Assembly (NCBI RefSeq): GCF_002261335.1
Contig: NZ_NEVL01000001.1
Coordinates: 186,001-250,000, forward strand
Source of the DNA: Bordetella genomosp. 1
Lineage (GTDB): Bacteria; Pseudomonadota; Gammaproteobacteria; Burkholderiales; Burkholderiaceae_B
Direction of reading: 5' to 3'
Length of the DNA stretch: 64,000 nt
Positions 27,378-29,702 of this stretch are shown one piece after another. Position 1 is the first letter of the stretch. Every line of letters starts with the position of its first letter. Below the pieces are notes generated by a model. It was not told the DNA's origin. It made no database searches and was given only the letters and a program-made list of their open reading frames with translations. A program made the position numbers and the translations under genes.

Positions 27378-27405
27378 GGAACTCTGTGGCGGTGCAGCAG
27401 TCGAA
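27378..27405 (+). promoter_or_regulatory. Sigma-E-like promoter of rpoH
   Basis: GGAACTC (27378-27384), 15 bases, then GTCGAA (27400-27405). This closely matches the extracytoplasmic sigma-E consensus (GGAACTT, about 15-16 bases, GTCnAA). Transcription would start inside the adjacent CIRCE element. In E. coli one rpoH promoter also uses sigma-E. Confidence 0.65.
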
Positions 27406-27432
27406 TTAGCACTCTCCTTGTTGGAGTGCTAA
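27406..27432. promoter_or_regulatory. CIRCE element (HrcA operator) in front of rpoH
   Basis: TTAGCACTC (27406-27414), nine bases, GAGTGCTAA (27424-27432). This is an exact match to the CIRCE inverted repeat bound by the heat-shock repressor HrcA. A possible sigma-70 -10 box TAAGAT (27430-27435) overlaps its right end, with TTAGCA 18 bp upstream as -35, so HrcA binding would block both this promoter and the sigma-E-like one. Confidence 0.93.
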
Positions 27433-27474
27433 GATCAACGCATGTCTGTTCCCCGTACCCTGGAGGTCGCCCAT

Positions 27475-28362
27475 ATGATGCAAGCCAGTTCGTCTGCCCT
27501 TTCCGGCAATGCGTTGGCCCTGGCAGTGGCCAACCCCGGTGCGCTGGGCACCATCGACGCCTATATTTCGACGGTCAATCGGCTGCCGGTGCTTACCGCC
27601 GAGCAGGAATCCGCATTGGGCCGCCGTCTGCGCGACAACGACGACCTCGAAGCCGCGCGGGAACTGGTGCTGTCGCACCTGCGCCTGGTGGTTTCCGTGG
27701 CGCGCCAATACCTGGGCTATGGTCTGCCGCACGCAGACCTGATCCAGGAAGGCAATGTCGGCCTGATGAAGGCCGTCAAGCGATTCGATCCCGAGCGCGG
27801 CGTGCGCCTGGTGTCGTTCGCCGTGCACTGGATCAAAGCCGAGATCCACGAATACGTCATCCGCAACTGGCGCATGGTCAAGGTCGCCACGACCAAGGCC
27901 CAGCGCAAGCTGTTCTTCAATCTGCGCAGCATGCGTCCTGACGGCCATTCGCTGGATCCGTCGCAGGTCGATCACATCGCCGAGCAGCTCAACGTGCGCC
28001 GCGAAGACGTGAGCGAGATGGAAGTGCGCCTGTCCGGCCGCGACCTCGCGCTCGAAAACCAGGACGAAGACGACGACGCCTACGCGCCGATCGCCTACCT
28101 GTCGGACGAAGGCCGCGAAGAACCCACGCGCGTGCTGGCCCGCAAGGCCCATGATGCGTTGCAGAGCGAAGGCCTGAACGGCGCCCTCGAAGCGCTCGAT
28201 GCGCGTTCGCGCCGCATCGTCGAGGCCCGCTGGCTGCAGGACGACGGCGGTTCCACGCTGCATGAGCTGGCCCAGGAGTTCGGCGTGTCCGCCGAGCGCA
28301 TTCGCCAGATCGAAGCGGCCGCGTTGAAGAAGATGCGCGGTTCGCTGGCCGCGGCCGCCTGA
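27475..28362 (+). CDS. rpoH: RNA polymerase heat-shock sigma factor (sigma-32)
   Basis: Sigma factor directing RNA polymerase to heat-shock promoters, 295 residues. Region 2 is clear (ELVLSHLRLVVSVARQYLGY, GNVGLMKAVKRFDPERGVRL, FAVHWIKAEIHEYVIRNWRM). The sigma-32-specific RpoH box is QRKLFFNLR. Region 4.2 ends the protein (LHELAQEFGVSAERIRQIEA). TGGAGG eight bases before the ATG at 27475 favours that start; a start at 27442 lacks a ribosome site. Upstream control elements combine a sigma-E-like promoter with a perfect CIRCE box. A strong terminator follows. Confidence 0.96.
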   Translation: MMQASSSALSGNALALAVANPGALGTIDAYISTVNRLPVLTAEQESALGRRLRDNDDLEAARELVLSHLRLVVSVARQYLGYGLPHADLIQEGNVGLMKAVKRFDPERGVRLVSFAVHWIKAEIHEYVIRNWRMVKVATTKAQRKLFFNLRSMRPDGHSLDPSQVDHIAEQLNVRREDVSEMEVRLSGRDLALENQDEDDDAYAPIAYLSDEGREEPTRVLARKAHDALQSEGLNGALEALDARSRRIVEARWLQDDGGSTLHELAQEFGVSAERIRQIEAAALKKMRGSLAAAA

Positions 28363-28382
28363 GTCCGGCCGATGTCTCTCCA

Positions 28383-28410
28383 AAACGCGCCGCTTATGCG
28401 GCGCGTTTTT
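28383..28410 (+). terminator. Intrinsic terminator of rpoH
   Basis: AACGCGCCGC pairs with GCGGCGCGTT around TTAT, preceded by A residues and followed by a T run. It lies 20 bp after the rpoH stop. Confidence 0.93.
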
Positions 28411-28530
28411 CTTTGTGCGCCGGGCGGCCGGGGCGGCCGTCATGAATTAATACAAATTTGTGGCAAACGCGCCCGGATTTTCCGAAACTTCAGCCGCGCC
28501 TGCCTGACTAAACATACGTAGACCGCAACT

Positions 28531-28639
28531 TTGGTTCTTCCAGGTCGCTGTCTTGACGTCCGTCTCGGCTTCTCCTCTTTCCCCTCCCCTATGAGACGGA
28601 CGCTTACGGGGCATCTCGCATATCGATGCCCCGTTTTTT
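28531..28639 (+). ncRNA. Candidate small RNA with a CU-rich loop and intrinsic terminator
   Basis: Between the rpoH terminator and the next gene lie two perfect hairpins in tandem. The first has a 10-bp stem CGTCCGTCTC (28557-28566) / GAGACGGACG (28593-28602) with a 26-base loop that is almost all C and U and contains TCTCCTC and CCCCTCCCC, complementary to Shine-Dalgarno sequences. The second is a 10-bp stem ACGGGGCATC (28606-28615) / GATGCCCCGT (28625-28634) ending in six T, a classic Hfq-compatible terminator. No convincing coding frame is present. The 5' end is uncertain (a promoter somewhere in 28450-28525 is expected). The shape resembles anti-SD-loop sRNAs known in other proteobacteria, and possibly the betaproteobacterial toxic small RNA family; that link is recollection only. 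Confidence 0.72.
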
Positions 28640-28675
28640 ATTCTCACGCGTTGCGCCGCCTGCGCAGCGTGTACC

Positions 28676-28719
28676 AAGCCAGCGGGCCCGGTGATGCTTC
28701 ACCGGGCCCGCTGGCTTTT
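28676..28719 (+). terminator. Perfect 19-bp hairpin between the sRNA and cpdA
   Basis: AAGCCAGCGGGCCCGGTGA (28676-28694) and its exact complement (28699-28717) enclose a four-base loop, with TTTT at the plus-strand end. It can terminate plus-strand readthrough past the sRNA and probably also the minus-strand cpdA transcript. Between it and the cpdA stop (28720-28784) I see only GC-rich sequence. Confidence 0.75.
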
Positions 28720-28784
28720 GTGCGTGGATGGGGCGCCTGCGCCGCCGCGCCGACGCAGCCCGCGGGCGGGGGAGCCGCGCGCGC

Positions 28785-29702
28785 TCAGGCCGCGCGGGCG
28801 TCGGTCCGGGGCTGGCACACGGCCTGCCAGGCCGATGCGTCGAGGCGGCGCACGCCGCTGGCGAACGAGCCGTCGCCGTAGAGCTTGATCCAGCGATAGC
28901 CGGCCGGCTGCGGATCGATCGCGTGGCGGCCGTCGCGGATGGTGAACTGGAAGCAGGTGGACGGCGTGGCCAGCATGCGCAGGTTGTGGCGGCGGCAGTC
29001 GAACTCCTGGTGCACGTGGCCCCACAGCACCAGCCGCACGTGCGGCGAGCGCTCGACCCGGCGGAACAGGGCCAGGGGGTTGTCCACCATCATCGGATCG
29101 TGCCAGTTGGCATCGATCTGGACCAGGTTGTGATGCAGCGCCACCAGCACATGGCGGCCCTCGGCCTGGGCCGACTCGACCGCCTCGCTCAGCAGGTCGA
29201 GCTGCGTGTCGTCGAGATGGCCGCCGTCGGCGCCCGCTATCGTGGAATCCAGCGTGACGACGCGCCAGTTGGCGATGTCGGTGATGGGCGAGGTCCAGTC
29301 GCCGAGCGACTGGCGCAGCACCTCGGGGGCGTCGTGATTGCCCGGCAGGCAGCGCACCGGCCAGCCGGTGGCGGACAGATGCGCGCGCAACCGTTCATAC
29401 GAGGCCGCGCTGCCGTCCTGCGACAGGTCGCCCGTGGCGAGCAGCAGGTCGGGCGTTTCGGGCTCGGCGCCGATCTGCGCCAGCACTGCGCGCAGACTGG
29501 CGTCGGTGTTGACGCCGAGCATCACGGCGGCGGGATCGTCGTACAGGTGCGCGTCGGTGAGTTGGACGAGCCGGACCGGCGCGTCGGCGGCGCGCGGCGC
29601 ATGCAGCGGCAGCGTGGTGCTTCGCAGGGACGGCAAGGATCGGCTCCAGAGATCAGATGGCTGTACGTCACAGTAGCGAACAATGATGGCACACGCGCGC
29701 AT
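28785..29702 (-). CDS. cpdA: 3',5'-cyclic-AMP phosphodiesterase CpdA-type metallophosphoesterase
   Basis: Calcineurin-fold phosphodiesterase, up to 305 residues. It has all metal motifs: LVQLTDAHL, LLLATGDLSQDGS, PGNHD, LVALHHN and LWGHVHQE. It also carries the LLGVNT-like VMLGVNTDASLRAVL and the MLATPSTCFQF segment seen in E. coli CpdA, which makes cAMP hydrolysis more likely than another phosphoesterase role. Start is uncertain. The ATG at 29702 adds 22 residues without similarity, whereas a TTG at 29636 with GGAG eight bases upstream gives an N-terminus that lines up with E. coli CpdA. It is divergent from an antiporter with a cyclic-nucleotide-binding-like domain. Confidence 0.88.
   Translation of the reverse strand: MRACAIIVRYCDVQPSDLWSRSLPSLRSTTLPLHAPRAADAPVRLVQLTDAHLYDDPAAVMLGVNTDASLRAVLAQIGAEPETPDLLLATGDLSQDGSAASYERLRAHLSATGWPVRCLPGNHDAPEVLRQSLGDWTSPITDIANWRVVTLDSTIAGADGGHLDDTQLDLLSEAVESAQAEGRHVLVALHHNLVQIDANWHDPMMVDNPLALFRRVERSPHVRLVLWGHVHQEFDCRRHNLRMLATPSTCFQFTIRDGRHAIDPQPAGYRWIKLYGDGSFASGVRRLDASAWQAVCQPRTDARAA

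Follow-up and report, generated by a model that had tools for sequence, protein, structure and literature searches.

The window, that is, the whole stretch of 64,000 nucleotides that was analysed, carries rpoH, encoding sigma-32, on its plus strand (27442..28362; TIGR02392, 405.4 bits, over the cut-off; the position of the start codon is tentative). The consensus scan placed a terminator of rpoH at 28382..28409 (plus strand), the only terminator-like site listed between the genes, with 0.9 expected in shuffles. A phosphodiesterase-like gene follows on the minus strand (28785..29702; PF00149, 58.9 bits; PRK11148, 203.3 bits, under the cut-off of 225) and is convergent with a small RNA (sRNA) of about 120 nt. 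The sRNA was assigned to 28518..28639 on the plus strand from its promoter position and terminator, the published size of the sRNA CT_521 and the fold (z -5.64); its 5′ end is an estimate with an uncertainty of about 2 nt. Between the sRNA terminator and the phosphodiesterase gene lies a perfect 19-bp inverted repeat with a 4-nt loop (28676-28717), which is perhaps a terminator.

Upstream of rpoH, a sigma-E-like promoter, GGAACTC-N17-CGAA, was found at 27378..27405 (plus strand), with the same spacing as the promoter of the sRNA. Directly after it, at 27406-27432, stands the perfect inverted repeat TTAGCACTC-N9-GAGTGCTAA, which we take to be CIRCE-like. Such a repeat precedes rpoH in 40 of 42 loci, which suggests HrcA control of rpoH. 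The sigma-E-like promoter pattern was found upstream of rpoH in only 16 of the 42 loci, so that rpoH may be controlled differently in the other 26. In B. bronchiseptica, SigE is reported to transcribe in vitro from the rpoH (fam) promoter region (PMC3490749).

In the seed hairpin of the sRNA (28557..28602, plus strand), positions 28557-28566 (CGTCCGTCTC) pair perfectly over 10 bp with 28593-28602 (GAGACGGACG), as read from the letters and rechecked by script. This first stem encloses a loop of 26 nt (28567-28592) with C or T at 23 of the 26 positions, containing the motifs TCTCCTC and CCCCTCCCC. The second stem is formed by 28606-28615 (ACGGGGCATC) and 28625-28634 (GATGCCCCGT), again with perfect 10-bp pairing, and a run of six T (28634-28639) closes the hairpin, giving a Rho-independent terminator at 28606..28639 (plus strand). 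The consensus terminator scan did not list it because its loop has 9 nt and the limit of the scan is 3-8 nt. Both assignments are supported by covariation as well as by sequence, and that of the seed hairpin also by a nearly invariant loop. The T tail of the terminator would likely also bind Hfq.

A preliminary description of this DNA had reported both 10-bp hairpins, the 26-nt C/U loop and the six-T terminator, and all were found where it had placed them. Its 5′ boundary was 28531; judged from the promoter position, transcription would most likely start at about 28517-28520, some 13 nt further upstream, and an RNA running from 28518 to the final T of the terminator would have 122 nt. A 5′ hairpin (28520..28553, plus strand) that the preliminary description did not mention is supported by the fold and by its conservation in homologs. 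Among the homologs that have the promoter pattern, all 63 were predicted to form a hairpin joining both ends of this segment, whereas shuffles gave 40.9 of 63; a stricter form of it was likewise found in the 63 homologs, against 33.3 in shuffles, and the mean energy was -12.3 kcal/mol in the homologs and -8.0 kcal/mol in the shuffles. The predicted fold of 28508-28640 had an energy of -47.2 kcal/mol, compared with -28.95 (sd 3.26) for 200 dinucleotide shuffles, none of which was as stable (z -5.6). In this fold the first stem comprises 11 pairs, one of them an additional G-U pair.

Searching the whole window with Rfam release 15 gave nothing at or above the gathering threshold, and the Rfam check suggested in the preliminary description found no family at the sRNA. 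A relaxed search of 28380-28700 yielded 11 hits, all sub-threshold; the sole one over the sRNA on the same strand was GadY (15 bits, threshold 45), and neither MicA nor RybB was hit in the Rfam scan. The description of the element as unannotated thus holds for Rfam. It does not hold for the literature, where the sRNA has very probably been described as CT_521 in the sister species B. pertussis.

Covarying stems and promoter

The element is a conserved RNA gene in which both stems covary. Thirty cores (L002-L031, the duplicate L001 being left out), corresponding to 27 distinct sequences, were aligned. Over both helices, 97.7% of the cells in the 27 distinct sequences were paired and 14 of 18 pairs had changed on both sides. 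Helix 1 was paired in 100% of the cells, with eight of its ten pairs changed on both sides and two invariant; for helix 2 the values were 94.9% of the cells and six of eight pairs. The loop GCTTCTCCTC...CCCCTCCC was nearly invariant across the aligned cores. Compensatory changes together with a conserved C/U loop had been named beforehand as the observation that would support the preliminary description, and this is what the alignment contains. Four of five covariation measures were reached by 0 of 500 shuffles, and the fifth, further pair types, by 5 of 500. The signal was lost when the partner was shifted by 1-3 columns; the structure used here was derived from one aligned sequence. Loop length differs by one or two bases among relatives, which argues against a coding sequence. 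Within the 3 kb retrieved, rpoH stands upstream of the sRNA in 28 of the 30 loci, L020 and L027 being the exceptions.

Upstream of the sRNA, a -35 element GAAACTT of the ECF/sigma-E type (28484..28490) and the -10 element GACTAA of the same promoter (28506..28511), both on the plus strand, follow a pattern that is conserved in the homologous loci. Of 66 distinct loci, 63 have the pattern AAC[TC][TA]-N17-CTAA in the 110 nt that precede the loop; the chance level per set was 0.17 by mononucleotide shuffle and 0.19 by a first-order Markov model. The loci are related, some of them closely, so that 63 of 66 does not stand for 63 independent events. Two copies of the window (L001, L036), other genes (L032-L034), loci without the loop motif and duplicates were left out of this count. 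The remaining three loci showed the same spacing in AACTT-N17-CGAA (L028), AACTT-N17-CCAA (L041) and AACCG-N17-CTAA (L083). Conservation extends to positions outside the pattern: in front of AAC stand G (48 of 63 loci) and then A or G (all 63), and in front of CTAA stand G (57 of 63) and then A or C (all 63). We take the arrangement GAAACTT-N17-CTAA to be of the ECF/sigma-E promoter type; a GGAACTT-type -35 element and a CTAA/CGAA-type -10 element at fixed spacing, as in sigma-E (ECF02)-dependent genes, were both found. The exact form GAAACTTN{15,19}CTAA occurs only twice in the 5.6-Mb genome, at the sRNA promoter and inside the rpoE coding region, compared with once for the reversed pattern. 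RpoE is encoded in the same genome (TIGR02939, 312.6 bits, over the cut-off) and is one of 13 matches to the RpoE model there. The promoter scan listed no sigma-70-type site in 28363-28784. Judging from these promoter elements, the sRNA would be under sigma-E control, and the earlier suggestion that it is possibly stress-linked gains support from the conserved promoter.

About 60-70 nt before the sRNA start there is an AT-rich element (28447-28456), TTAATACAAA here and TTGATACAAA-like in relatives, with [GA]ATACA at its position in 41 of 63 loci; it is possibly an activator site or an UP element. The separate rpoH terminator of the preliminary description is present in the window at 28382-28409. 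It is not a universal trait: between rpoH and the sRNA promoter a terminator was found by script in 36 of 64 rpoH-linked loci and was not found by it in the other 28.

Distribution of the sRNA and of similar rpoH-linked hairpins

The DNA was searched against its own genome and 120 relatives; 81 of these 121 genomes had matches at E <= 1, and all matches at E <= 0.01 fall in the window's own family (f1), which from the named loci appears to be the Alcaligenaceae. The covariance model R1, built from the alignment of 30 cores, was run on 250 genomes of the family and matched 163 of them, representing 35 of the 43 genera. Of 399 genomes sampled across the order it matched 12, and 11 of these belong to the family. 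R1 was also applied to 80 named rpoH loci, which are among the matches listed, had been picked by protein similarity alone and include none named B. pertussis. It produced 16 hits below E 1e-5. Thirteen of them place the sRNA after rpoH in the 15 Alcaligenaceae loci of this set, which were assigned to the family from the titles of their records and, in the case of six names, from the taxonomy; an Alcaligenaceae metagenome (L077) and Taylorella asinigenitalis (L140) gave no R1 hit below E 1e-5. The remaining three are metagenome records labelled Burkholderiaceae (L103), Pseudomonadota (L109) and Burkholderiales (L120), with E of about 1e-7 to 1e-6. Weak hits on the minus strand in L125, L123 and L150 (E 0.037, 0.37 and 3.2) were not counted. 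One metagenome record labelled Bordetella parapertussis (L128) has an RpoH 68% identical to that of the window and no sRNA hit; it is probably mislabelled and was set aside from the Alcaligenaceae count.

In five loci a C/U-loop hairpin and a terminator lie at most about 60 nt behind the rpoH stop codon, namely L103 (2460-2537), L109 (2404-2480), L120 (2410-2484), L046 (1500-1579, minus strand) and L218; L046 and L218 come from a different family within the order (f19). No sigma-E-type promoter was found at these five loci. In four of the five rpoH 3′ UTRs, GGTTGGTTG-like repeats precede the hairpin. A second, broader model, R2, had L046 (genome G341) in its training set and is mostly a sequence model, since the stems of the two groups are not in register in its alignment. 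At E <= 0.01 it had matches in 34 of the 399 genomes sampled from the order. Outside the family, four matches fell below E 1e-5 (L213, L214, L215 and L218), each of them shortly after rpoH; L213 repeats the training locus L046, two others share its genus, and L218 is the independent one. Among 16 retrieved R2 loci outside the family with E > 1e-5, none had rpoH beside the match (three of the loci are incomplete, and five further weak rows stand outside this count); L227, a weak R2 locus, has only a 27% identical sigma factor nearby. These weak matches, without adjoining rpoH, were treated as chance or as other C/U-rich RNAs and rejected as relatives. Scanning 450 nt after rpoH for hairpins revealed no such hairpin in the loci of Burkholderia, Paraburkholderia, Cupriavidus and Massilia. 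The scan after rpoH gave weaker candidates in L089, L105 and L136, which R1 did not match.

Probable orthology with CT_521, predicted targets and proposed mode of action

The sRNA is very probably the ortholog of B. pertussis CT_521, an assignment that rests on its place, its size, the C/T-rich region by the terminator and the promoter geometry, compared by the published description. CT_521 is reported as an RNA of about 120 nt between bp3747 and rpoH (PMC12235514). Both RNAs thus lie between rpoH and the neighbouring gene, share this size and have a C/T-rich seed just upstream of the terminator; in both, conservation outside the closest species is concentrated in the 3′ part and the -10 region, with the 5′ end placed near 28518 here, lies 13-2 nt before the 5′ end. 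CT_521 was detected on Northern blots in Bordetella species, was lower in an hfq mutant and higher in both endonuclease mutants, and had 22 S-chimeric RIL-seq partners (PMC12235514). A Shine-Dalgarno-like motif is common to its targets and complementary to the C/T-rich seed, on which most of the reads fall (PMC12235514). Two sRNAs, of which CT_521 is one, are reported to participate between them in more than 73% of B. pertussis sRNA-mRNA chimeras. These reports on the probable ortholog support the proposal of the preliminary description that an anti-Shine-Dalgarno, Hfq-dependent sRNA is encoded here.

The functional data on CT_521 come from deletion of its -10 region (-13 to -2), after which targets changed in both directions (PMC12235514). 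Expression of tcfA and secretion of TcfA went down and bp0572 and bp0913 went up, whereas ptxA and fhaB transcripts apparently increased with their proteins unchanged (PMC12235514). If the 5′ end lies near 28518, as we infer, the published deletion would hit GACTAA, which fits the window. The earlier statement that the sRNA represses many mRNAs calls for qualification: repression in this genome is a prediction, and the effects of the promoter deletion in B. pertussis were mixed. CT_521 was captured during exponential growth, and bacteria inside macrophages showed no induction of it (PMC12235514), which indicates that it is not strictly stress-induced. In the accessible part of PMC12235514, deletion of rseA was tested on CT_532 only, without effect; CT_532, the proposed MicA homolog of B. 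pertussis, is reported as a different RNA from CT_521.

The published conservation of CT_521 covers bordetellae and related bacteria; the present analysis widens this to 35 of the 43 genera sampled from the family and adds the covariation, the sigma-E-type promoter and the group with a similar hairpin in the rpoH 3′ UTR. The accessible part of PMC12235514 assigns no sigma factor to the CT_521 promoter, and the conserved sigma-E-type promoter offers a specific, testable answer. No link between CT_521 and sigma-E appeared in the literature found, which comprised titles and beginnings of abstracts with most subscription journals outside its scope; the accessible part of an earlier paper on B. pertussis sRNAs (PMC3110155) does not contain the word rpoH.

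Candidate targets in this genome were sought as places where the complement of the first seed stands ahead of a start codon, GAGGAGAAN{2,9}ATG; nine distinct ones (ten rows) were found genome-wide, compared with one for the reversed pattern. A porin and an OmpA-family gene, so named from the appearance of their sequences, are among the nine; at two of the sites the reading frame has no more than 22 and 35 codons, and these are probably not genes. Of the 24 family genomes that gave a match, 23 have GAGGAGAA at the ompA site; the 23 include G008, G013 and G018, which had no sRNA hit, and comparable sites were seen in L200 and L201, two genomes from outside the family. As the ompA leader is conserved over much of its length, the site is not specific evidence. 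At the porin site, 7-12 nt of complementarity are kept in 11 of 13 loci, which could be explained by Shine-Dalgarno function alone. The idea of outer-membrane targets was accordingly not adopted on the ground of conservation, which does not discriminate it from ordinary Shine-Dalgarno function. The 5′ leader of the OmpA-family gene may contain a regulatory RNA element: in many of 23 loci (L177-L199) it hardly varies over some 30 nt ahead of the ATG, a stretch that reaches past the Shine-Dalgarno sequence. The targets of the sRNA in this genome, and the direction of its effect on them, are at present predictions from base complementarity.

We consider it quite probable that the locus encodes an independent, trans-acting, Hfq-dependent sRNA of about 120 nt, orthologous to CT_521, which has its own sigma-E-type promoter and represses translation by an anti-Shine-Dalgarno mechanism. 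The sRNA would be transcribed by sigma-E RNA polymerase from its own promoter and end at its own terminator. It would fold into three hairpins, of which the 5′ one may protect the RNA and the middle one would keep the almost invariant C/U loop open, to serve as an anti-Shine-Dalgarno seed. While Hfq occupies the terminator tail, the loop would pair with purine-rich ribosome-binding regions (GAGGAGAAG-, GGGAGGGG-like), and this pairing would mostly block translation. Given the promoter of the same type at the neighbouring rpoH in the window, envelope stress would induce rpoH and the sRNA together.

The alternative that deserves most weight, although we think it rather unlikely, is that the same sRNA is transcribed by the housekeeping or another ECF sigma factor and that its conserved promoter is not part of the envelope-stress response. 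The capture of CT_521 in unstressed exponential cells and the lack of induction inside macrophages (PMC12235514) would agree with this, as would the sigma-A promoter of the sister sRNA S17 (PMC11722255) and the 13 matches to the RpoE model, RpoE included, which indicate that other ECF-type factors exist. It is opposed by the lack of any listed sigma-70-type site in the rpoH-sRNA intergenic region, by the conserved G-R-AACTT and G-M-CTAA at constant spacing, which is the geometry of the window's rpoH promoter, and by the in vitro transcription of the B. bronchiseptica rpoH promoter region by SigE (PMC3490749).

A small RNA that is merely a processed or read-through by-product of an element serving mainly as rpoH 3′ UTR and terminator appears improbable. 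Such an origin would fit the 28 of 64 rpoH-linked loci in which the script found no terminator before the sRNA promoter, and L046, L103, L109, L120 and L218, in which hairpin and terminator directly follow rpoH with no such promoter found. It fits poorly with the terminator that rpoH has of its own in the window, with an sRNA promoter kept in 63 of 66 loci and with the presence of CT_521 in TEX-treated libraries, with a stated 5′ end and target levels altered by promoter deletion (PMC12235514). That the locus is a double-stranded DNA feature, or a pair of chance hairpins without RNA function, we regard as almost negligible: intergenic inverted repeats are common and no Rfam family reached threshold, but the stem covariation score was reached by 0 of 500 shuffles, the nearly invariant loop is asymmetric and on one strand with a promoter upstream whose distance is nearly constant, and published Northern blots show a transcript of CT_521, the probable ortholog (PMC12235514).

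On a wider reading of the independent sRNA gene we are evenly divided. The sRNA may be the non-coding arm of the Alcaligenaceae sigma-E response, in which one sigma factor would direct both rpoH and an adjoining broad anti-Shine-Dalgarno repressor, so that chaperones are made while many mRNAs, possibly those of porin and OmpA, with ribosome-binding sites that fit the seed, are throttled; the hairpins in rpoH 3′ UTRs elsewhere in the order would then suggest an old rpoH-linked sRNA that gained or lost a promoter.

Comparison with other regulatory RNAs

S17/CT_433 of betaproteobacteria depends on Hfq and carries single-stranded seeds that are complementary to ribosome-binding regions, as is proposed for the present sRNA; it differs in having a sigma-A promoter and in its RNase E processing (PMC11722255). 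An S17/CT_433-like sRNA is also encoded in the own genome (L034 1084-1004, minus strand), beside coq7 and with the TTGCAT/TACTAT promoter reported for S17. R1 matched it weakly (20.3 bits, E 0.0035 in 74.5 kb), with most of stem 1 missing, and in view of this weak match common descent with S17 was not taken as established. Cuckoo/CcsR-type sRNAs also have C/U-rich anti-Shine-Dalgarno loops, and some of them are linked to RpoH or stress; with no Rfam family at gathering score here, the likeness is one of analogy only. RybB and MicL are sigma-E-dependent sRNAs of enterobacteria. MicA is likewise reported to be under sigma-E control (PMC12235514). The proposed logic, namely an envelope-stress sigma factor, Hfq and the repression of many mRNAs, would be common to MicA, RybB, MicL and the present sRNA, whereas the present sRNA has its seed in a large internal C/U loop and its gene stands beside rpoH. 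If the proposed model is true, the sRNA would be a betaproteobacterial counterpart to the enterobacterial sigma-E sRNAs, one that uses a different RNA and is physically linked to rpoH.
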